Assembly (NCBI GenBank): GCA_022695795.1
Contig: MU404118.1
Coordinates: 62,001-126,000, forward strand
Direction: 5' to 3'
Source of the DNA: Biscogniauxia marginata
Lineage: Eukaryota > Ascomycota > Sordariomycetes > Xylariales > Xylariaceae
Length of the DNA: 64,000 nucleotides
Below, piece by piece: positions 1,920-45,048 of the stretch. Below the pieces are notes generated by a model. The model saw only the letters and a program-made list of their open reading frames with translations. It was not told the DNA's origin and did no database searches. A program made the translations under genes and the position numbers. Every line of letters begins with the position of its first letter. Position 1 is the first letter of the stretch.

Positions 1920-4355
1920 CTACGCAACTATGATCTCGCCAGTCTGCCGAATATCACGGCTGCTTGATCCCACGTTGAAGGTAAATGTGCCGGTCGGCAA
2001 GACCCAGTTCTGCTGTACCGTGTCCCAAATACTCAGATCACGCCTCTTTATGTTGAACACAACGTTATCCGAGGCGCCAGCGTCGAGAGAAATCTTCTCA
2101 AACCCACGGAGTTGTTTCGGTGGTGCTGCAGCGGACTCCGGGAATCCAATATAGAGCTGCGCAACCTCGGCACCCGGAACGCTGCCCGAGTTGGCGATTG
2201 TAACCGTGACGGTCATTACCGTCTCCCAGAGGTCCGCAAGGCCACCAGGGATTATATCTCCAGTTGCAGGGCCCGATACAGGTTGTCCATCCACGAAGAT
2301 GTCGGAGTAAGTGAAGTTGGTGTACGCTTAGCACTGTCAGAAAGTCTCGCTGATAGAGTATCGCGTGGATAGAATCTTGGAAACTTACACAAGCCATAAC
2401 CAAATTCGTAACGCGGCTCAATATCCTCCTGGTCAAAGTGGCGATAGTCGACGAAAAGACCTTCTACAAAGTTGTCGTTACTACTACTAACTCTCGTTCC
2501 GTAGTCTGCCTCAGCCTTGGCAATGGTGTAGGGCAGCTTGCCAGAAGGGCTGGTATCTCCATAAAGGATGTCGACGAGGGCATTCCCATTCTCTTGGGAC
2601 GGGAGTCCAGCCCAAACAATGGCCTTAACATTAGGCTCTGCCAGGATTGTCTCTAGGATGACGGGCCCGACCGCGTGCACGACAACGATAACATTCTCAT
2701 GTGCTGCTGCGACGGCCTGTACTAATTGGTTTCCATTGTGCCATGGATTGAGGTCGTTGCGGTCACCGGCGTGGCCCTCTACCGTGATGTACCCCTCTCC
2801 ACTGTCAGACGTAATAAACACGATAGCGGCGTCAGCACCGTTAACTGTGGATCCGACCGAGCCGGTACTATCAGATGCGGATGTGCTGACTTGGGTACCA
2901 TCCTCCTGAGCGCGAGCCTTTATAGCATCGTCTGGAGCTACAAAATAGGGGTATGATGCGGTTCCAGATCCCCAGCCCATTCCCAAGGCACCATCATTAC
3001 AGCCTTGGTCTGCACAGGCATTAATACCTGATGGGTTCACGGCAACTGAAGAACCAACGAGTGCAAGTTTAGTAGGCTTCTGCAGTGGGAGGGTACTATT
3101 ATCGTTCTTCAGCAGAACGATCCCATCTCTTGCTACCGCACGGATGTTGGATTTGTGAGTCCCCTTAACGTCGGCGTCGAGATTGATGCGGGGGTAATCA
3201 GTGTCCTGTCCAAGAATGTATGAAGCTGCTAGGATCCGACGGACCATGTCATCGACGCGGGACTCCTCAACTTGACCGCCGCTGATTGCCTGGTTCAGCA
3301 ACGACCCCCAAAGCACATTGTTGCCATCGTAGTCGGAACCCGGCATTGTCATGTCTAATCCGGCATTAGCCGCTGGTGATGTCGAATGCTGGGCATTCCA
3401 GTCTGTCATCACATATCCTTTGAATCCCAACTCGTCCTTTAGGAGTTTATTCATGACCTCGGGGTTCTCACAAGCCCAGGTACCGTTGATTTTATTGTAG
3501 CTGCACATCACCGACACTACGTTTGCGTGCACGGCATCGGCAAACGGCCATAGGTATAATTCATGCATCACACGGTCGTCCACAGTGGAGCTGATTGTCT
3601 CGCGGTTTAACTCTTGCTCGTTGAGAATGTAGTGTTTGGCATTGGCTTGTACTCCAACAGCCTGCATAGCCTCGATCGTTTCTGCCATCGCAATGCCTTG
3701 TAGGTACGGATCGGCTCCAAAGCCTTCCCAGTTTCGTCCACCATGGGGTATCTTGCCAAGGGGACCAGAAACCGGGCCCAGAAGGACGTGAACACCGGTT
3801 CCTTTTGCCTCTTCGGCCATAAACTGCCCTCGTTCCCTTATGAGAGCACGATCCCATGTTGAAGCTGCGTGGATACCAGGGGTGAAGGCGTTCACGTTCG
3901 TGGCGTAACGAACACCAAGAGGCCCACTTGGATGTAAACGTGAGTTAGAAATCACCCTTTCTGGTAAATAAAATGGGGGTTAAACGCATGTCTCGGCAGC
4001 AAAACGTTCTCAAATTGTCCAGATAAGGAAATTATAGCTCCCGAGAAATGACAAAATGCGAAATAATAAACTCTTCAAGTACATACTCTTGCAAACAAAG
4101 CTGAGGATAATTAATGGAGCTTATTGCTGGCGTGTTCCCGACGCAAGGCCCTTTATTCCAGCCTACACCTGTGACGATATTGATCTTGTCGGACAGGGAC
4201 AAGCCTTCGAGTGCTGTATCTGCTTTATCATAAGCTGCCACCCAGTCAAGCGCTGCAGTTGCAGTCAACGTGCTGTTAGCTGAGGAAGCATCAGCGGGAG
4301 CTGCCCGAGCCACTGAGACCGCAGATAGCAGGGCAACAAAGATATGAGAACGCAT
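1920..4355 (-). CDS. Secreted GH3 family beta-glucosidase
   Basis: Three exons on the minus strand: 4355-4087, 3926-2389, 2326-1920. Introns are 160 bp (GTATGT..AAG) and 62 bp (GTAAGT..AAG). The product is 737 residues. It should hydrolyse terminal non-reducing beta-D-glucosyl residues outside the cell, for example from cellobiose. The start MRSHIFVALLSAVSVARAAP reads as a signal peptide. The (beta/alpha)8 domain holds NAKHYILNEQE and the nucleophile motif GYVMTDW, with Asp about residue 265. The alpha/beta sandwich domain follows (GIVLLKND, EGHAGDRNDL), then a C-terminal fibronectin III-like domain (GYGLSYTNFTYSDI onward, PPKQLRGFEK). Splicing into exon 3 restores the family motif GYGLSYT, which fixes the last intron. 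Its length is usual for fungal GH3 enzymes, and no defect was seen. Confidence 0.93.
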
Positions 4356-5360: not shown

Positions 5361-6028
5361 ATTATTACATTTTTAATTATTAAAAATTATTTACGTTATA
5401 TTGAAATTAATTAATGATTATCATTATTTAAACCGTTTTATTTAACTTTATATTTTAAAAACCAAATACCTTTTTTATATTAAATATTTAGTTTTTTAAC
5501 GTGTAATTATATCGATTAATTAATTATATTTTCCGAGTTAAAACCTTTTAAAATTAAAATAAAAAATTAATAATAAATAAAATTAATTAAATACTTATAT
5601 ATATTATATAGTTTTTATTTAGTTATTACGTTTTTTCAAGATTTCCTTTTTATTATTATTAATAATAATAATTTTTTAATTTATAAAGTTGCTTTTTTAT
5701 TATATTAAATAATATTTTTATTTATAAATACTTATTTTTAGTTTTATATTGTTTATAAAAAATGTAGTTTATTTCTCGAAAATAAGTAATTTTATTTTTA
5801 ATATAAAATGATAAAAAGTATAACGGCATATATAAATAAGTCTATATAAAGAAGCCTTAATAAAGCTTTAAAGCTAAGCTTTTTTTAATAATTCATTATT
5901 TTTTTCCTTACTTTATATATATTCGTATTAATTTTATAATAAAAATAATTTATATATTAATATTAAAATAAATTTTATAAGTTAATTATAAATATTTATA
6001 ATACTTATAAAAACTTTTTAAAAAAACT

Positions 6029-6359
6029 TAATATAACATACTATATAAGCGAGTAGACGAAACAAGCTCGCGAACGAAATGGTTTCTTATACAAAATCGA
6101 CTTTTTCGAAAATTCATAACTTTACACCTAAAATTATAACAAAACGCACGGACCTTTTTTTCTAGTTATATAACTATATAGTTTAATTAAAATAAAATTC
6201 AAAAAAATTAATATTAATAAAGAAATATATAAAAAGGTCCGTGCGTTTTGTTATAATTTTAGGTGTAAAGTTATGAATTTTCGAAAAAGTCGATTTTATA
6301 TAAGAAACCATTTCGTTCGCGAGCTTGTTTTGTCTACTTACTTATATGGTACGTTATAT
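6029..6359. mobile_element. MITE-like element with ~135-bp terminal inverted repeats
   Basis: The left arm (6029 to about 6163) and right arm (about 6232-6359) are near-perfect reverse complements. They share the segments ACAAGCTCGCGAACGAAATG, AAATCGACTTTTTCGAAAAT and AAAACGCACGGACC. Only about 70 bp of A/T-rich spacer separates them, so it can fold into one long hairpin. It has no coding capacity. The arms keep CpG-containing words inside an otherwise RIP-saturated island, so this copy may be younger than its surroundings. The superfamily is not identified. Confidence 0.8.
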
Positions 6360-6689
6360 TAAAATTAAATATATATAAATATATTATTTATATTTATATA
6401 AACAATATAATAATAATTCTTTTAAAATTAAAAAATATATAATATTATAATAACGTAAAAAGGTTTAAAACGAGGCTTAATTTCCTAATTTATTAACGAA
6501 AATATTAAAAATAAAGAAAAAAGAAAAATTAAAATAGTTATTAAAGCCATTTTAATAATTAAATACATTTTAAGTTTTTGTTTTAACCTTATTATAAAAT
6601 AATAAATATAATAACGAGGTGTTTTATTTATTATTTTATTATTAAGCTTAGTATTAATTATTAAGCCGTGATATATAGTTTTTTTTCGT

Positions 6690-9030: not shown

Positions 9031-9463
9031 TGTGACGAACCTCTTTGTATGTTCCTAGTTAACTGACTTCACAAGTAAGTACGTACTAGGTTTTCTTAAT
9101 TTAAAGGTAATAATAGATTAAAATTAATTCAAGAAATTTATAATGTCTTGTTCATCAAAGAGATTTTAAGGTATTCTCATTATAATATTAAAGAGTAATT
9201 ATAGTTTTAAATTAATAATTAAAAAACTAAAATAAATAACTAAATATAAAAGAAATTCCAGGTTATTTATATAATTCTTTTTTAAAAACTAAGTTTATTA
9301 TTCTTTTTAATTATTCCATATAAATTTATCGTGATTTAGTCATACTTAAATCACAATAGATCTTATCTTTGGTCATTAGAAGTGATTACTCGAAGTTACT
9401 TTGTTATTAATTCACGGACCCCTCATTAAAAGTCCCCCTTTTAGTCTTAAATAGGTCGTAACA
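9031..9463 (-). repeat. RIP-decayed solo LTR of the 14.8-22.2 kb Gypsy element family
   Basis: Starts TGTGACGAACCTC. It follows the reverse complement of the Gypsy LTR at 21823-22231 closely to about 9290 (TAGTTAACTGACTTCACAAG, TAAAGAGTAATTATAGTTTT), diverges, then ends GGTCGTAACA, matching the LTR's other end. Flanks AAGAA (9026-9030) and AAGTA (9464-9468) are 4 of 5 identical. This is a reverse-oriented solo LTR left by recombination. Confidence 0.75.
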
Positions 9464-12092: not shown

Positions 12093-13659
12093 ATGAGTTC
12101 GACTGGACAACCTCCTCTCCCGACAGGGGAGAATCAGTCGAGCGTCAATGTAACTGATGACAAGATTTCCATTTTTGGTCCAAGAATGCTGCAGCACTTT
12201 GATTTCGAACCAACCTATCGTAATCTGAACCACGGTAAACTTGCTTCTTTCTGTTAGCTACTTAATCCTAACATATCATATTAGGATCCTTTGGAGCCGC
12301 TCCACGAGAAGTAAGAAATTATTTGCGTCAATATCAAGATCTCACGGAAGCAAAGCCGGACAGCTTCATTCGGTATGATTCGCCTAGCATATTAGATGAG
12401 TCTCGGGAGGCCGTTGCGAAACTTCTCAACGCTCCAACTGACGCTGTGGTATTTGTTTCAAATGCCACGACTGGTGTTAACACCATCTTCCGAAACATGG
12501 TGTGGAATGAAGACGGCAACGACGTAATCCTGTACTTCGGGACTATTTACGGCGCGTGTGGGAAGACCATTGATTATGTCGTCGACACGGGACTTGGCAG
12601 AGTCTCGTCTCGGGAAATCCCCATTCGATACCCTTGCGAAGATGCTGATATCGTGAACGGCTTCAAGTCTGCTGTGAAAGGATGTGCCAATGAAGGTAAA
12701 CGAGCGAGGATCTGTATATTCGATACAGTATCCAGTCTACCCGGTGGTGAGTTAATTTTGGAGTTCTTCATTACCTCTTATAGACGGTCTCAGGAGTAGA
12801 ACCTGCCTATCTGACTCGTTGTATGAGCTTTTGCTCCCGATATATGTTTCACGGGTTAAAAAGAGTCAAAATATGGCAATTACTGACCCCTTTTTCTGCA
12901 GTCCGATTTCCGTTCGAAGAAATGACTCGAGCCTGCCAAGAAGCGGGTGTTCTAAGCCTAATCGATGGAGCTCAAGGAATTGGCATGATTGACATTGATC
13001 TGCGTGGGCTAAATCCAGACTTCTTCGTTTCTAACTGTCACAAGTGGCTCCATGTTCCAAGAGGTTGCGCCGTTCTCTACGTCCCCTTCCGGAACCAGGA
13101 GATGATAACGTCTACACTGCCCACATCGCATGGGTACATATCGAAATCTAAACAACGAGTCAACCCTCTGCCCGAAAGCAGCAAGTCGGCCTTCGTTAAC
13201 AATTTCGAATTCGTTGGTACCGTTGATAATAGCCCCTTTCTTTGCGTCAAGAATGCTATTCAATGGCGAAAGGAAGTTCTCGGCGGTGAAGCTAGGATAT
13301 CGGAGTACATCATCGCACTTGCCAAAGAAGGAGGCAAGGAGGTAGCCAGAATCCTTGGCACGGAAGTCTTGGATAATAAGACGGGGACAATGTCTAACTG
13401 TTCGATGACCAATATCGCCTTGCCGTTAAGCATCACGGAGGCATCCGCTGCTACAGAGTGGATATTGAAGACGATGATGAAGGACTACAAGACGTTTCTG
13501 CCATTGTTCATAATCGAAGATCGCTTCTGGGTAAGGATAAGTGCGCAGGTCTACTTAGACATCGATGACTTCAAGTGGGCGGGACACACACTTCTTGAAC
13601 TGTGTACGAGGGTTAAAAAGGGAGAGCATCAGAGTGAGCGAGTCGATCCTCATGCTTAA
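12093..13659 (+). CDS. Class V (NifS/isopenicillin-N-epimerase-like) PLP enzyme
   Basis: Three exons: 12093-12234, 12285-12746, 12902-13659, giving 453 residues. It belongs to the fold-type I PLP aminotransferase class V group, near fungal LolT/isopenicillin-N-epimerase-like proteins, which act on amino-acid substrates in secondary metabolism. The N-terminal signature is NLNHGSFGAAP, restored by splicing intron 1. Further motifs are FVSNATTGVNT, LIDGAQGIGMIDI (Asp contacting the PLP ring nitrogen) and the lysine motif CHKWLHVPRG, with the Schiff-base Lys about residue 249. Family knowledge predicts cysteine/amino-acid lyase or epimerase chemistry, and the true substrate is unknown. Intron 2 (155 bp) is homologous to the intron of the FAD monooxygenase gene at 44 kb. 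The gene sits beside transposons but is intact, and its link to the PKS cluster is inferred only from proximity. Confidence 0.85.
12747..12901 (+). other. Intron 2 of the aminotransferase gene: introner-like, copy 1
   Basis: GTGAGT..GCAG, 155 bp, phase 1, with a branch-site-like ACTGAC near 12883. End to end it aligns with the reverse-strand intron at 44195-44030. Both begin GTGAGTTAAT, and share CTTATAG, GAGTAGAACCTGCCTAT, TTTTGCTCCC, ATGTTTCACGGGTTA and CAATTACTGAC in the same order and spacing. Roughly 80% of aligned bases agree by eye. Both are followed by TCC in the downstream exon. Confidence 0.85.
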
Positions 13660-14757: not shown

Positions 14758-15120
14758 TGTTACGGACCCCAGAATGGAACTACGTACTGGTCACGTGGTT
14801 TAACGAGAGAATCAGTGAATCGCTCCTCTTAGCGGAGCGATTTAATAACTTACTTATTTTAAGGAAAAGAGAAATAAGTATAAGTAAATTGGAATTTCCT
14901 TATGTATTTAGTTATTTTTTCTAGTTTTTTAGCTATTAATTTAAGACTATAGTCACTTTTTGATATTATAATAAGAGTACTTTAAAACCTCTCTAACGAA
15001 CATAATATTCTAAATTAATTAAACTAATTTTAACCCATTATTACCTTTAAATCAAGAAAACCTAATACGTACTTACTTATGAAGTTAGTTAACTAGAAAC
15101 ACATAAGGAGGTTCGTTATA
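14758..15120 (+). repeat. 5' LTR of the Gypsy element
   Basis: 363 bp, TGTTACGG..GTTCGTTATA, whose last bases correspond to TTCGTCACA in the 3' LTR. It contains one hairpin, AATCGCTCC..GGAGCGATT (about 14819-14843). It differs from the 3' LTR mostly by transitions and lacks one 46-bp unit present there. Confidence 0.9.
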
Positions 15121-15196
15121 TTTTAATAACTCCTTAATTAGTGCTTGACATTAATTTAAGAGAAAGGATTTTTAATTGAACAATCCCAGGACAAGT

Positions 15197-21822: not shown

Positions 21823-22231
21823 TATTACGAACCCCAAAATAAAACTACGTACTAGTCACGTGATTTAACAAGAAAATCAGTAAATCGCTCCCCTTAACAA
21901 AGCGATTTAATGATTTAATAACTTAGTAAATCGCTCCTCTTAGCGGAGCGATTTAACGACTCACTTATTTTAAGGAAAAAAGAAATAAATATAAGTAAAT
22001 TAGAATTTCCTTATATATCTAGTCATTCTTTTTAGTTTTTTAGTTATTAATCTAAAACTATAATTACTCTTTAATACTATAATGAGAGTACCTTAAAACC
22101 TCTCTAACGAACATAACATTTTAAATTAATTGAACTAATCTTAACCCACTATTACCTTTAAATCAAGAAAACCTAGTATGTACTTACCTGTGAAGTCAGC
22201 TGACTAGGAACACATAGGGAGGTTCGTCACA
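21823..22231 (+). repeat. 3' LTR of the Gypsy element, with a duplicated hairpin unit
   Basis: 409 bp, TATTACGAACCCC..GGTTCGTCACA. It holds two tandem copies of an AAATCGCTCC..GGAGCGATTT hairpin unit (about 21885-21960), one more decayed than the other. The 5' LTR has only one, which accounts for the 46-bp length difference. Confidence 0.88.
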
Positions 22232-35800: not shown

Positions 35801-38800
35801 AAGTATATTAACGTGGCTTGTGTCAACAGTCTAGTGAACTGCACGCTTTCCGGCTGCGAATTCGCGATTGATGTCCTGAAGAAGCAGCTCGACAAAGATG
35901 GGATATTCGCACAGAAGCTTAAAACAGGGGTTGCGTATCACTCTCCATATATGTTGAGAATTGCCAGAGAGTACTTGCTGGAGATGGGGATTTTGGAATG
36001 TGGTAATAGCAAATTAAAGGGAGTCAGGTCATCGATCCCTATGGTGTCGTCGGTAACAGGGCGTACTATTCGCCCATCCTTACTGACGACTGCCCAGTAT
36101 TGGGTGGACAACATGGTATCACCAGTTCAATTCGCCGATGCGATGCAGCTCTTATGTAAGAGCTCGTTGACACTAAAAGTCGGGACGGGATGTATAACAG
36201 ATATTGCTGAAATTGGGTCCCATTGTGCACTCCGTCGGCCGATCCAAGATACTCTCGGGAGAGACGGGAACCACAAGAAAGTCCGTTATATGTCGGTGCT
36301 ACATCGGTCGAAGTCTGCGGTCCAAAGCACTCTTGAATTCGTTGGATACTTATTCTGCCACGGACACACAGTATCGATTACTACAGCAAACCAGCAATTA
36401 TCCACTCAGAGGCCTCTCCCAACCTTTTTAGTTGACTGTCCTGAGTATCCATTTGACCATTCTCGTATATACTGGGCCGAATCACGACTAAGTAAGGATT
36501 TTAGGCTACGCGAGCCCGTATCAGGGGACACACTGGGGTCGCGCTTTTACGACTGGAATCCGCTTGAGCCAAGATGGAGAAATTTCTGGAGTGTAGAAAC
36601 TACTCCATGGATTGGAGATCACGTTGTATGCTGTCTTTTATACCAGTATATTCAAGTGTACACGCTAACCAGGGCAAAAGGTTAGCGATACTATCATATT
36701 TCCTGCCGCAGGTATGCTGGTGATGGCAATGGAAGCGGTACAGCAAACAGCGACTGTCAATCGTCTAGTATCGGGTTACTACGTCAAGGAGGCACATTTC
36801 CTTAGTCCCATTTTTGTGGAAAAGACGTGGGACAGCAAGACAGAGACTCTCCTTCATCTCCGCCCGGTTCGGAGACCTTACGAGAAGGAATCGGTCTGGT
36901 CAGACATCAAGATTTTCGCTTATGTCGGTAATCAGTGGACTGAGTGTTTTCAAGCCACTGTACAGATCCAGTACGCGGAGTCTAATGTTAATATCGACGG
37001 CGGGCTTGAAGGGAGAATGGTGGAAGAGAGTGTTCTACACCAATATCAGGTGGCGACAACAGTTTGCACAAGGCCAATCGAGTCTCAGAGATTCTATAAA
37101 GACTCCGCAAAGCATGGGATTAGGTATGGAGGGTGGTTTGAGCTGTTAGAGGATATTCGCTGGGATGGGAAATCTAACGTCCTAACGCGCGTCAACGTTT
37201 CCACGCCCAGGTATCAGACCACTAGCCTTGTCCACCCTGCTATCCTGGATGCAGCATTTCAAGCGCTAAGAGTAGGTACTACGAAAGGACTATCCGCGTC
37301 GTCGCCCACACATGTCCCCATGCGATTGCATGACGCATGGTTTGCTGCCTCCGGCTGGCAGCCTCCACTAACAGCTTCCATTAGATATATGGTGACCACG
37401 AGAAGCGACCCTGGCCGAGAGGGAAAGGAGGGTTCCATCTATGCTCTAGCAGACGACGGATCGACGTTGTGTACGATGCGTCGAATGATAACGGCTCCAG
37501 TGTCTAAGAACGATGAGCCTGACCATGTCACAAAGAAGTTACTGTATGGTGTCGAGTGGAAGCCTCAGCTTAGCTTACTTGACTCGAAGAAGCTATTGCG
37601 TATGTGGGATGCCAGCACAGTCAAGGATGAGACTACCATGATCACATACTACCAGAAGCTCGGTTCCCTATTAGACAAGGTCGTATGTAGGATCTTGAAG
37701 CAAATGTCTAACAAGGAACGTGAGAGTGTTCCCAGTTCCTTAAAGAGGCACTTGGCGTGGATGGAGCATCATGCAAAACAGCTGATTGGCTCCCCGGCTC
37801 ACGACGAAATCAGCGATGCAGAGTTGGAGTCTTTGATGCAGGAAGTTGAGCCCTTGAATCCGCCCTGGAATTTAAATTTGGTGGTTGCACGCCAACTGAA
37901 GCGGATTCTCGTCGGCGAGATAGACCCGCTGTCGGTCATCTTCGATTCGAACATGGCAGAAATATTTTACGAAGACATGTTCAAAACAATCTGCGACCGT
38001 CGTCTCGCTCAATATATAGAGCTTGCTTCTCACGAGAACCCAAGATTACGTATACTGGAAGTCGGAGCCGGTACGGGGGGTATGACAACGCATATACTGT
38101 CCACATTACAGGACCTGGAAAAGCAAAGCGGTGGACGTAGGTTTGCGAATTACACATATACCGATTTGTCGCCCACGTTTTTCGAGAAGGCAAGCATCAA
38201 GTGGCAAGACCTCGAGGAGCGGATGACTTTCAAGATACTTAATCTTGAACATAATGTCGTGGATCAAGGGATAGACCCCGGTGCTTATGACTTGGTTATC
38301 GCCGGGAGCGTATTACACGCAACGGCGGATTTAGAGGCAACGATTCGAAATGTACGCCAGACACTCAGGCCTGGTGGACGTCTTGTTCTTCTCGAGGCTG
38401 TCGCACCGGAGAAAGTCATTACGAATTTTGTCTTTGGACTCGCGCCAGGATGGTGGAACTGCGTAGAAGACTGGCGAGCCTGGTCACCAGCCATTGTTGA
38501 AGAGAAGTGGGATGAGTGTCTCCGGGCCAATGGATTTTCTGGCAACGATCTCTGTATTAGGGATTATGAAAGCGATATAAGTCATATCTTTAATATCATC
38601 ATGACCACTGCCGAAGAGCAGGCAAAAGAGCCAAGTGCAGCTTCGAACGAGCTTTTCCTGGTGATCAAGGACGATTCAGATCAACAGGTCGCTCATGCTG
38701 GGTCAGTCTACCAGGCTCTTCAAACTTCTACTCGGCGAATACGAATCCTTTCTCTGGACCGGTTCCGGTCCGCAGAGCTGCGAAGCGATGATGTCGTTGT

Positions 38801-41471
38801 TTTCCTCGTCGAGTTACACGAGCCTTTTCTTTCTACAATATCTGAAAGAGGCTTTAGTGCGCTGCAAGATTTGATCAGGAGGACGCAGAATCTGTTATGG
38901 GTCACATGTTCAAGGATTAACGACGCCCGGTATTTAGAGTATAGTATCGTGCAAGGTTTCCTTCGATCGATTCGAACCGAAGCTATCGAGAAGAACGTCA
39001 TCACTTTAGCAATCGAATCACGGCCAGATGATAGCGACGCTACCTATGCGCAATACATTGCCAAGACTTTCAAAGCGGCGTTTGAATCGTCCTCGCTATC
39101 CGGGGAAGTGGATTACGTGGTCAGGGATGGCCAGATTGGCACAGCCCGAGCCGCTGAGGAGATACTCCTGAACCAGACCTTGAAATCCCTCCTGTACCCG
39201 CCACTCAAACACAAAGCCTGGTTATCAGGTCCAGCCCTTAAACTTACGGTGGGTACGCCTGGGATTCTCGATACGCTGCAGTTCGTGGAGGACCATAGGT
39301 ACGCCGAAGAGCTGGGCCCCCGCGAAGTGGAAATCGAGGCCAAAGCCTGGGGGTTAAACTTCCGAGACGTATATGTAGCTCTAGGCCGTCTAGATGACGG
39401 CGCTCTGGGAGGCGACTGCGCCGGCATCGTCACCAGGGTCGGCCCTAGCTGCACATCGGGGCTCCAGCTAGGAGACCGAGTCTGCATGCTCGTGCCGGGT
39501 TGCATGCGAACATACCCGCGCGCCCTTGAGTCGTGTGTCCTCAAGATCCCTAATAGCCTCTCTTTCGAGGCTGCGGCCTCCATCACAGCCCCCGGCGTCA
39601 CGGCTTACTACTCTCTATTAGACGTCGCACGACTCCGCAAGGGTCAGAAAATACTTATCCACTCCGCCGCGGGCAGCACAGGCCAAATGGCTATATGGAT
39701 CGCCAAGACGAAGGGGGCCGAGATCTTCGCGACCGTCGGCTTCGACGAGAAAAAACAGTTCCTTATGGATAGATTTGGTATCTCGGAGGACCACATATTT
39801 TACTCTCGGAACACAACATTCGCGCAGGGCATCATGCGCGTGACGAAAGGTTACGGAGTAGATGTGGTGCTGAACTCTCTCTCCGGAGATGCCCTCCGTG
39901 CGTCGTGGGAGTGTGTTGCTCCGTATGGGAGATTCGTGGAAATCGGCAAGGCTGACATCATGGCTAACTCGTCTCTCCCCATGGCATGCTTCGCGAAGAA
40001 TGTCAGCTTCTCGGCTGTTGATTTAGTTCACTTGATAGAGTCGGACGAGGAGCTTACGGCTGCTTTGCTTAAGAGTACGGTGGGCCTTCTTAGACAGGGG
40101 GTCGAGCATCCGAGTCCACTACATATCTATCCCGTGTCAAAAATCGAACAGGCATTCAGGTATCTCCAGAGCGGGAAAAATATAGGACGTATTGTAATCG
40201 GCATCGATCGTTCGGACGTAGTCCCGGTAAGTGCCCTAACCCATATGGAATCATGAGAAGTCTGGTAGCTAACGTACTTTTAAACACAGCAACGAGTCCT
40301 GGAACGTCGCTGTTGGAAGTTTGACGCAAATTCGTCGTACCTGGTTGCAGGGGGCTCGGGAGGCCTGGGTCGGGCTATCATGAAGTGGATGGCTAGTCGT
40401 GGCGTGAAGCACTTAATCGTGCCCTCAAGATCAGGGCCCACGGCTAAAGCAGCAGAAGTAGTCGCGGAATTAACACGGCAAGGGATCGAAATTGTGGCAC
40501 CAAAGTGTGACGTCTCTTCGGCCGAGTCGCTCGCTGCCGTACTCGAAGACTGCGCGCGCTTTATGCCTCCTATCAAAGGCTGTATCAACGCAGCTATGGT
40601 CCTTCAAGACGCCATATTCGATAACATGACGCACGCGCAGTGGGCACTCACTATTAGCTCTAAAATGAAAACGTCATGGAACCTACACCATCTGCTACCC
40701 AAGGACCTAGACTTCTTCGTTCTCCTGTCTTCGCTCGCCGGCGTTTGTGGCACAGTTGCACAATCAAACTACGCGGGCGGCTGCTCGGCGCAAGACGCGA
40801 TCGCACGTTACCGCGTTGCGCAAGGCCAGAAGGCGGTATCATTCGACGTCGGCTGGATGCGCAACATCGGCATTATCGCCGAGAAGGAGTCGTACCAACG
40901 GCATCGCCAAAACGCAGCTGACATGCAGCAAATTGACGACACAGAGCTTATGGCGTTGTTGAGCATATACTGCGACCCCGAACTGCCGCTTCTCTCTGTT
41001 CCTAAAAGCCAGATCCTTATAGGCTTGCTCACGCCTACCGACTTCATTGAGAAGGGGCAGGCAGTCCCAGAGATGCACGACCGTCCACTGTACGGACCCT
41101 TCTCGTACGTGGTTGGCGAGGCGACTAGTACTACCGCGAATGGCGCCGCCGAGGACCCGGCAGAGCTCTTCAGGAAGGCAGCAGAAACTGATGAGCGCAT
41201 ACAGATTGTTATACGTGCACTATCTGTGAAGCTCGCGCGCGCTATGGCCATCTCGCCTGAAGACGTGGAGCCGAGCAAGCCACTTTCGAGCTATGGCGTG
41301 GACTCGCTGATGGCGGTGGAGCTGCGAAACTACATTGGCAGAGAGTTCCAGGCTACGGTTGCAGTGTTCGACATCATGGGCGGTGTACCGATCGCTGCTA
41401 TCGGAGATCTAGTTGTGGAGAGGAGCAGCGTGGGGAAGAGCAAGGGAGTACCGCCGAATGGACAGGAATAG
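32889..41471 (+). CDS. Highly reducing type I iterative polyketide synthase
   Basis: Twelve exons: 32889-33059, 33116-33260, 33314-33582, 33657-33999, 34055-34145, 34197-34267, 34437-34528, 34582-35371, 35421-35571, 35629-36625, 36681-40226, 40290-41471. The product is 2615 residues. KS (about 3-430) has DTACSGSL with Cys174, EAHGTGT and [10 protein letters not shown] (about 610-930) has [12 protein letters not shown] and GHSSGE with Ser701. DH (about 1000-1310) has GDHVV with His1039 and LDAAFQ with Asp1230. C-methyltransferase has [11 protein letters not shown] (about 1500). ER (about 1895-2210) has GLNFRDV and [11 protein letters not shown] (about 2240-2420) has AGGSGGLG and QSNYAGG. ACP has [11 protein letters not shown] with Ser2561. 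All catalytic residues are present, so a reduced, C-methylated chain is expected. There is no thioesterase, reductase or condensation domain, so release must occur in trans. The KS-AT linker is rich in Asn-Gly. Ten of the eleven introns fall in the first 3.8 kb. Exon 7's 3' border is the least certain. Confidence 0.93.
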
Positions 41472-42450: not shown

Positions 42451-44680
42451 TTAATGTCCGTGAATTCTGGTAGGTCTTTGGCAGTTCTGTCTTGGTCCAG
42501 GTCTTTGGATGCGTGCTCTCATGGCTATGCCTCCCTCTAGTATATTATCATTTTTTCGTGGGGGTTGAACCTCCTCTCCGGGCATGTTCGGCCACGGGCC
42601 AGAACACGCCATTTCCGTTCTTGTGCGCGGACTGAGCTGTCCCAGTATCTCGAAGAATTCGAGGAATAAGCGATCCCTCGACGGGAAGACCCATCCTCCC
42701 CTATTCTTAACTCGAGGAGGAATTACTTCCATCTTCTGGAGCAAGTTACTCGTCACGGAGCCATTGCTGTAGAGCGGGTTATTTTCGACCAACCCTGTAG
42801 CATTCGATGCGTTTAGGTTACCTCCCCTGGCTGTCTGCAAAACTATTGGCATGCTCCTCAGGTCGATCTCCCGGTGTCTCAGTCGTCCCAAAAAATCATT
42901 GTAGGCTTTAAATGACTCCGGCTGTAGGCCGATCAGTTGCTTTTGCCGGAGCAGGTGGACGACTTCATCCGCCCACGCGACAGCAGACTTGATGCCGCTG
43001 TTCATTCCCCTGCCAGGCCAGAAATGAACTTGCATCGCAGCATCACCTGCCAGGGACACCAAGCCATGGGTACGATGTGTCTTGTTTTCACACCTTGGTC
43101 TCTTGCTTTCGCTTTTGGTGACCGGTAACAATTTGACCCCCGTCTTTACCCCTCGTACGGTGACCGGGATCCGGACTATGTCTGTGACATCCTGGGTCCT
43201 CAGTCCAAAGAGTTTTAGCCCGTCCAAGATGGCTATCCATAGAGGGTTTTCCGGGTCTAGGGACGGAGCAAAGATCTGACTGTCTGTAAACCCCTGGGGC
43301 AGACAGCCATTGACCCGGAGGCAGCTAGGGTGCGTGAAGTCGCAGTACTTGCCGTCCACCCTTCGCATTTGATCCCATTCAGACCTCGTAAGCTGCATAT
43401 TAAGGTAGCCTCTCCCACCGATGTTGCTTGCGTTTAGAAGATATCGTGTCTGGACTAGTGTCAGGAAGATATTAAGATCCTGCTGGCGAGGCAATCCATC
43501 CGGGCAATTGATTCCAATTCCCAGCGCAAAACCGGTCGCGTACTGCTCGTCGTCATCTCGGAAATACGTTTCCCGTACCCAAGACCCGCCGCCATCCGCA
43601 CCAAGTAACAGGTGGAAATCGTTACAGTGTGACAGTCCCTCGCTCGTCATTTCTTCGGAGTGGAGGTATATGATGTCCTTAAACTCAGTATCTTGGGCAC
43701 GGTGGAGCAGCCGATCCTCGACCTTGCTTATCTGGATATTACTTGAGTTGGGCCAAACCCGCTCCGGGTGCCCCTGGAGCAGTGCTCTTCGTGTCGTGGT
43801 CGAAAATAGGTCAGTAACGTCGTCCTGCAGCGTCACTACTTGGCCGCGGCGTCGCTCGGTGGACGGATGGGAGACAAACGATAAGGCGCCGTCGCTACTG
43901 CGGCAACGCTTTTCGTAGACATGTACTTCAACTTTACTCCCTACTTTTTCTGCTAAGGTAATAGCTGCAGTGAGGCTGGTTGGCCCACCCCCGACGATGA
44001 CAACCTTGAGTCGGGCCACCGGATAGGGACTGCAAAAAAAAAAAAAAGTTGAGTCAGTAATTGTTATATTTGGACTGTTTGTTAACCCGTGAAACATGTC
44101 TTGGGAGCAAAAACTCATACGACAAGCCAGAATAGGCAGGTTCTACTCCTCACACAGACTATAAGACGCAATGAATAATTCCAAGATTAACTCACTAAAC
44201 CACAGGTTTCTCTGGTGGCTTCCAGAAATTGCGACACATAGTCGGGTCGAAGTAGAAATCCCGAATCTCTTTCGTATCCTTACAAGGGGTTTCCCTCAAG
44301 GTTTTAATAAGGATGAAACGTACGAGTTGTAGAAGTGGAGTTGTACAGAAAGTTGCGTGTTTATTTTGAAAAATACCCCTTTTGATCTCGGTAGCTAGTA
44401 GCGACACTTTCTTTCCCGGGTACCCAGTTATGAGGAATCGTTCTAGCTGTTTCGATGTGGCACTATCAAGTGCTCCTCGTCCAGCCAATTTCAAAAGAAG
44501 AGTCCAAACTTTCTCCTCGGCTGTGCTTCCGGCCTCCATCCAGTCATCTTCCAAAGATGGCGGAAACAGTATATTATCCGAAACGGAGTCTGAAGCCCTA
44601 GTGACAATCGGTGCCACTCGTGTGAGCGTAGCAAACGATAACGCTAGCTTGAATGCAGAGAGGAGTTTGTCCATGTCCAA
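42451..44680 (-). CDS. Class A FAD-dependent monooxygenase with an N-terminal extension
   Basis: Two exons on the minus strand, 44680-44196 and 44029-42451, giving 687 residues. The Rossmann FAD-binding motif KVVIVGGGPTS begins only at about residue 170. The second FAD/NADPH motif is LLLGADGGGSWVRE (DG motif) and the third is VSLAGDAAMQVHFWPGRGMN (GD motif). These place it among single-component aromatic/polyketide hydroxylases or epoxidases of the PHBH fold. The 160 residues before the FAD motif are mostly helical and unassigned. A similar helical leader occurs in some fungal flavoenzymes, and it could instead be a separate short ORF joined only by the model. The intron between the two parts is the introner-like copy 2. 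As neighbour of the PKS it likely oxidises the product. Confidence 0.82.
44030..44195 (-). other. Intron of the FAD monooxygenase gene: introner-like, copy 2
   Basis: GTGAGT..GCAG, 166 bp, phase 2. It is homologous throughout to the plus-strand intron at 12747-12901. The length difference is almost entirely a run of 14 T before the 3' splice site (A run at 44034-44047 on the plus strand). Excising it joins CCTGTGGTTTA to TCCCTATCCGG in frame and produces VYPYPVARLKVVIVGGG. Confidence 0.85.
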
Positions 44681-45048
44681 AAATTATTCTTTCCGAAGCC
44701 TTGGGAATGTCTTCAAATATTGTCCTTGAATGATGCTATGAACTATTGAAGTATTGATCTATGAATTATTGCGAGAAACCCGTTGGGTATTACTATATAT
44801 TACTTCACACCAATGATTACAAGTATATCCAAGTTTTCCTTTCGCGATACTTTGAATACGAGATTCGAGATATCTAGAAAGTGATGAGAATGGTCCAGTT
44901 GAGATGTAGCCTGCGCACTTAGAAGATTAGAGATCAGCTAATACCTTTTGATTAAACGAGGGCATTTTGAAGACATTGTCTCAATCCTTCAATCCTCGGT
45001 ACTCAAGTATCTTCAGTCTTCCACTTGATTCTGATCCGAGTTATCACG
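44681..45048. other. Short intergenic gap
   Basis: Upstream of the monooxygenase gene and downstream of the next minus-strand gene. Nothing recognised. Confidence 0.5.

Follow-up and report, generated by a model that had tools for sequence, protein, structure and literature searches.

Introner-like elements have been described in Dothideomycetes (van der Burgt 2012 and Torriani 2011, as cited in PMC8469720 and PMC3443670; see also PMC4457414). In the available text of these sources, the elements are co-linear with transcription and have a predicted stable fold (PMC3443670), and those of van der Burgt and colleagues show an AG/GY insertion preference (PMC8469720). In Hypoxylaceae and Xylariaceae, sister stwintrons and cropped sister introns occupy new gene positions, according to the available parts of PMC8469720, PMC9024468, and PMC12403724. 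The same portions of PMC8469720 and PMC12403724 describe these symmetric twin and canonical introns as seamless and without flank bias, and propose that they were captured at breaks. Other introners derive from DNA transposons. As presented in the accessible part of PMC9860276, with the algal cases cited there, they are often marked by duplications of 3-9 bp or by terminal inverted repeats, and one of their splice sites may be taken from the target; ascomycete introners are the outliers there, lacking both duplications and terminal repeats, and fungal introners are described as biased toward genes.

Here, we analyzed two introns of Biscogniauxia marginata, a fungus listed by NCBI in Xylariales, Xylariaceae, and whose genus is placed in Graphostromataceae by a 2026 paper. 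These introns are likely members of an introner-like family, whose elements insert copies of themselves in coding exons. Since this family bears the main marks of fungal introner-like elements, its kind is already known. Like the elements of Dothideomycetes, it consists of many similar canonical introns in unrelated genes, on the sense strand, without target duplication, with a predicted fold or symmetry and with decay with age. By published description, it differs from them by the fungal order and by the insertion site, which is YA^T[CG] here versus AG/GY there. The original prediction, made from the sequence of the locus, had turned to Dothideomycetes for comparison; this was the right kind of element, but the genome belongs to Xylariales, for which sister stwintrons and cropped sister introns have been published. 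With the latter, the present family has in common the order, the seamless insertion, the internal symmetry, and the lack of duplication. Judged by their description, however, sister stwintrons are mostly twin introns with a G|GT start and no flank bias, whereas the present family is made of single canonical introns, mostly preceded by A and with a strong flank bias. As for DNA-transposon introners, introns would here be born from copied elements, and the lack of duplication is in line with the ascomycete outliers in the accessible part of PMC9860276.

Two window introns and their relatives in the genome

The window, that is, the whole stretch of 64,000 nucleotides that was analyzed, contains the two introns in unrelated genes. 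Copy 1 (12747..12901, + strand, 155 nt) reads GTGAGT...TTACTGAC...CTGCAG and interrupts a class-V aminotransferase gene in phase 1. It is preceded by an in-frame open stretch (12272..12745, + strand) and followed by another open stretch (12904..13656, + strand), and Pfam Aminotran_5 was found on each of these exons when they were scanned apart. Copy 2 (44030..44195, - strand, 166 nt) lies in phase 2 in a FAD monooxygenase gene. The downstream FAD-binding monooxygenase exon (42454..44028, - strand) matches the B. marginata protein P0121 at 100%, and the end of the upstream exon, an open stretch at 44198..44683 on the - strand, forms part of the same protein; on its own, this upstream exon had no Pfam match. 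Both introns start with GTGAGT and end with GCAG. Thus, the positions of the two introns and their GT...AG ends were as originally claimed, and so were the phases, 1 versus 2. The identity, which had been put at about 80%, was 83% in an end-to-end alignment (BLAST E 3.1e-37). The two copies had also been said to flank a polyketide cluster, and indeed a polyketide synthase with dehydratase, methyltransferase, and zinc-binding dehydrogenase domains is found between them (36714-40253).

An Rfam scan of the window gave no match. The window also contains dispersed repeats at 9031-9255, 14814-15127, and 21925-22231, which are 225-300 nt long, 82-88% alike, and present in both orientations. At 6028-6362, there is an inverted repeat with arms of 152 nt, 91% complementary and 31 nt apart, which is foldback- or MITE-like.

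The original prediction was that, if further copies existed, the two introns would represent a mobile family. A BLAST search of the genome (45.3 Mb, 229 contigs) with copy 1 gave matches for 40 of the 40 candidates scored, out of 59, and an nhmmer search over the fetched loci returned 73 copies above 80 bits, or 87 at E<=1e-3 when weak copies and fragments were included. Both figures are lower bounds, and the genome holds at least 73 strong copies. Loci were gathered by pattern scans for three blocks (one scan found 111 places, of which the first part was used) and from short fetched stretches. This yielded 143 merged anchor places; the 64 with at least two anchors or a BLAST match were all taken in, as were the 26 having just one end anchor, 5' or 3'. 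Among the 49 places having only the middle anchor, with two mismatches, 15 were examined (L109-L123) and none of the 15 gave an nhmmer hit.

The 73 copies were 130-196 nt long, and all had GT at their 5' end; a clear acceptor was present in 71, of which 56 measured 155-159 nt. Mean pairwise identity was 83% over 71 copies, with 95.5% for the best pair, and identity to the consensus ranged from 82 to 96%. Seven pairs of copies were located within 10 kb of each other versus 1.2 expected under uniform placement. A possibility was that this reflected local hopping; we rejected it, as the seven pairs had identities of 0.76-0.87 and were no closer to each other than the mean of 0.83.

Contig C3 contains three copies within 9.6 kb. 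At one locus (L058, 2992-3150 and 3442-3596, - strand), two introners sit 450 bp apart with a common exon between them, apparently in one OPT transporter gene. At another (L024, 755-910 and ~1464-1615, - strand), two introners are separated by 709 bp, apparently in one polyketide synthase gene.

Placement in coding exons and splicing

The copies reside in genes as different as those for aminotransferase, monooxygenase, transporters, glycosidases, polyketide synthase, amidase, glutamine synthetase-like protein, and GNAT acetyltransferase, among others. For 44 of the 73 copies, pieces of the exons were scanned with Pfam; 28 of the 44 gave a match at E<=1e-3, a few of these falling below the curated cut-off. 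The exon flanks had been described as unrelated for the two window introns; throughout the 73 copies, the sole similar pair corresponded to two copies in one gene, with the exon they share. One could imagine ordinary repeats landed in older introns, or introns copied along with duplicated genes. Nothing beyond the similarity itself speaks for this, and that similarity extends right up to the splice borders, while the host genes differ and their flanks are unrelated save for the one pair within a gene. The border and flank tests thus refute this explanation, to which we give practically no credence.

We then scored coding potential around each copy with codon scores, for which 12 long open frames in the window served as the training set; the best frame of each flanking exon was sought separately. 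The exon frames found in this way agreed across the splice for 65 of the 73 copies, as compared with about 1 in 3 by chance and with 36 copies if the element was retained; for the remaining 8, the exon frames did not join. The sense codon score exceeded the antisense score for 67 copies. Had the hits been mostly intergenic, the original prediction would have failed. Instead, the sense score was both positive and above the antisense score for 62 of the 73 copies versus 22% of random places, and 11 copies failed this stricter test. Among the 6 copies whose antisense score equaled or exceeded the sense score, 2 joined in frame anyway, and the other 4 could be in non-coding or short-exon surroundings. 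Joint open frames with 99 nt or more on each side were found for 66 of the 73 copies in sense and 31 in antisense, and at 27-31% of random places. Antisense or intergenic placement was demonstrated by codon scores and open frames for none of the 73 copies.

Protein relatives showed no indel at the junction in all six host genes checked, namely, the window aminotransferase, the window monooxygenase, a sugar porter, and three genes aligned to solved structures. For the aminotransferase (n=11 relatives), 10 of the 11 continued without indel (SSLP, then G/A/S, V/I, R/C, F/L, and P), the 11th not being displayed at the junction; for the sugar porter, this was the case of 17 of 17 aligned relatives. 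For the monooxygenase, the Camillea protein P0122 and the Anthostomella protein P0123 continued without indel. Splicing at the predicted borders found support for the copy 2 gene only, in the database protein P0121 (100% identical along the query exon), which reads KPVVY|PYPVARLK, that is, spliced exactly at the borders of copy 2; this support comes from database annotation, not from RNA.

We also asked whether the element might be a [D1,2] stwintron. This was rejected on two grounds: the G|GT start was not found, with a G before the element in only 15 of 71 copies, and P0121 has the entire GT..AG segment spliced out, preceded by an A.

A donor, a branch site, and an acceptor are present in the copies themselves, which are predicted to be complete, self-sufficient spliceosomal introns of ~156 nt, and the annotation of P0121 agrees with the predicted splicing. 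These observations support the reading of the introns as introner-like elements, with the element's own ends acting as the splice sites.

A preferred target site

Flanking bases were counted for 71 of the 73 copies, two being dropped as their AG was not found. The base after the intron (+1) was T in 68 of the 71 and the next one (+2) was C or G in 69, while the base before the intron (-1) was A in 47 and G in 15, and the -2 base was a pyrimidine in 59. Copy 1, at TG^TC, is among those with G at -1; the target of copy 2 is TA^TC. The full motif, YA|T[CG], was observed at 39 of the 71 copies versus an expectation of 1.3 computed on the same exons (p below 1e-40). The bias held after removal of copies at least 90% alike, since T[CG] then followed 56 of 59. 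At ordinary introns predicted within these loci, T[CG] was found in 5 of 37; these ordinary introns are predictions, of which a strict set contained 9, too few for use, and a relaxed set 37 or 85. No target duplication above background was found in the 71 copies, a check that had been called for at the outset.

Two published models of insertion can be confronted with these counts. AG preceded the intron in 1 of the 71 copies and G followed in none, so the AG/GY preference is absent and the classical proto-splice site is avoided; this is a point against a plain reverse-splicing model. The other model, put forward for Hypoxylon sister introns in the available parts of PMC8469720 and PMC12403724, has intron RNA captured at random breaks in DNA. 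Seamless insertion, lack of duplication, and a symmetric consensus fold, all in a fungus of the same order, agree with it. Random breaks, however, should leave no flank motif, whereas T[CG] followed 66 of the 71 copies versus 9.0 expected from the same exons. These counts speak against the random-break model, which would be tenable only if the breaks themselves were sequence-specific and which we regard as improbable. From the motif, target choice is sequence-specific; neither AG/GY proto-splice insertion nor random breaks predict such a motif.

Whether the motif belonged to the target or to the element was evaluated from the junction codons. In the sugar porter, the junction codon is ATC (Ile), and Ile is found in 16 of 17 relatives, with Leu in 1; in the monooxygenase, it is TAT (Tyr), and Tyr is found in both relatives. 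Because the junction residues are kept in the relatives of both proteins, the motif most likely predates the intron and would not be part of the element. The site may also bear on intron phase. Phase 1 was in excess (39 of 71 copies), and 49% of the A|T[CG] motifs in flanking coding sequence were in phase 1; at A|T[CG] sites, 28 of 44 copies were in phase 1, a difference that was not significant (p 0.06). The position of A|T[CG] within codons may account for the excess, and therefore site choice, rather than selection on phase, may shape intron phase.

A strong preference for Y-A^T-[C/G] is, as far as we found in the literature, new for introners. In the literature searched, we found no published description of this B. 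marginata family; the search did not extend to supplements, which may list it under another name.

A sub-family of diverged members, 138-146 nt long, was recovered by exact or one-mismatch matches to the 3' block (L084, L088, L097, L099, and L107), and BLAST with one member added two more (L124 and L125, borders set by eye). It has the branch-site block and the architecture in common with the main family. In the seven members read, which are part of the places matched, T was at +1 in 7 of 7, followed by C or G in 6 of 7, and A came before the intron in 4 of 7. The window itself contains a probable third, degenerate relative (3927..4086, - strand), a 160-nt intron in a GH3 glycosidase gene reading GTATGT...TTCTAAC...AAG, with flanks GA^TG. 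It scored 19.2 bits with nhmmer (E 3.6e-5 for the window), the joined exon reads LCLQ-D-GPLGVRYA with borders set by eye, and GH3 domains are located downstream. By these sequence features, it may be a degenerate member of the family. Because the older sub-family and the GH3 relative both have T at +1, this preference may predate the recent burst.

The fold and a proposed route of copying

Conserved folding had been proposed as a further check. The consensus folds stably, but RNAalifold on 43 copies gave no usable consensus fold and covariation was weak. The consensus alone adopted an end-to-end fold of -41.0 kcal/mol (z -3.6; 0 of 500 shuffles as stable), in which positions 1-16 pair with 121-138, that is, the donor region with the branch-site region. 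At least five pairs between the first 22 and the last 48 nt were predicted in 61 of 71 copies versus 22 in one shuffle each. Over the 71 copies, mean fold z was -1.64, with 23 below -2, and ordinary predicted introns had a mean of 0.10 (60 of 85 folded). For window copy 1 alone, the best fold lacked the end-to-end stem. In the consensus fold, 91.1% of cells were paired versus 90.8% in column shuffles (44 of 500 as high) and 30-48% in slid versions, and 10 pairs had both sides changed versus 5.8 in shuffles (22 of 500 as high). Terminal repeats had a mean local match score of 8.3 versus 6.8 in shuffles, and the near-terminal inverted repeat had a 3' arm that stops 18 nt before the border. The terminal stem may be partly due to the natural complementarity of the donor and branch-site motifs.

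The 43 resident copies had a mean z of -1.89 versus -1.74 for a consensus randomly mutated to the same degree. Because resident copies thus resemble a randomly mutated consensus, the fold seems to decay after insertion. Fold stability showed no correlation with closeness to the consensus (Spearman 0.06, 43 copies). Our own reading of these models is that the copied ancestor would have been symmetric and that resident copies drift.

Near-terminal inverted repeats in the consensus, together with a cut between A and T without duplication, are also what a non-autonomous DNA transposon could show, if it inserted between A and T without target duplication and had gained splice sites at both ends. 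This is the main rival explanation. Helitrons and Spy elements insert between A and T without target duplication, and Helitron termini are TC..CTRR. We considered Helitron membership on account of the A^T cut and ruled it out by the termini, the ends of the present element being GT..AG in sense and CT..AC in reverse. Moreover, the inverted repeat does not reach the 3' end, falling 18 nt short of it. No long partner was found by pairing of 5'-end and 3'-end anchors, nor by reading ~0.76 kb at 18 single-anchor places, a search that was not exhaustive, and the copies measure 130-196 nt. Last, a DNA transposon should be tolerated in antisense or between genes, yet no copy was demonstrated there. 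We consider a DNA transposon with an A^T target rather unlikely.

We favor RNA-mediated copying, because placement is mostly in sense within coding sequence, the GT..AG borders are precise, duplications are lacking, and the consensus is symmetric. The intron RNA, once spliced out, would fold on itself, with the near-terminal stem pairing the donor region and the branch-site region. It would then be re-inserted into the coding strand of transcribed genes, by reverse splicing or by ligation into an opened strand, and would subsequently be turned into DNA. The A^T[C/G] preference would reflect the enzyme or RNP that opens the target rather than splicing, and resident copies would afterwards decay as neutral introns. 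In its most specific form, this proposal is a tentative one, possible without being probable: insertion would be guided by a sequence-specific step, a YA^T[C/G] cut on the coding strand unrelated to splice-site rules, in a retrohoming-like process involving a spliceosomal intron RNA and a putative target-opening enzyme, maintained in one Xylariales lineage over two waves or more (families A and B).

The origin of new spliceosomal introns is an old open question. The leading fungal models, that is, reverse splicing, with AG/GY in some families, and capture at random breaks, predict different insertion sites. A sharp motif that fits neither model makes it possible to predict the landing sites of copies, and it can be set against the cleavage preferences of nucleases, topoisomerases, and reverse transcriptases. 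The target preference of the B. marginata family could thus reveal how new introns are made.
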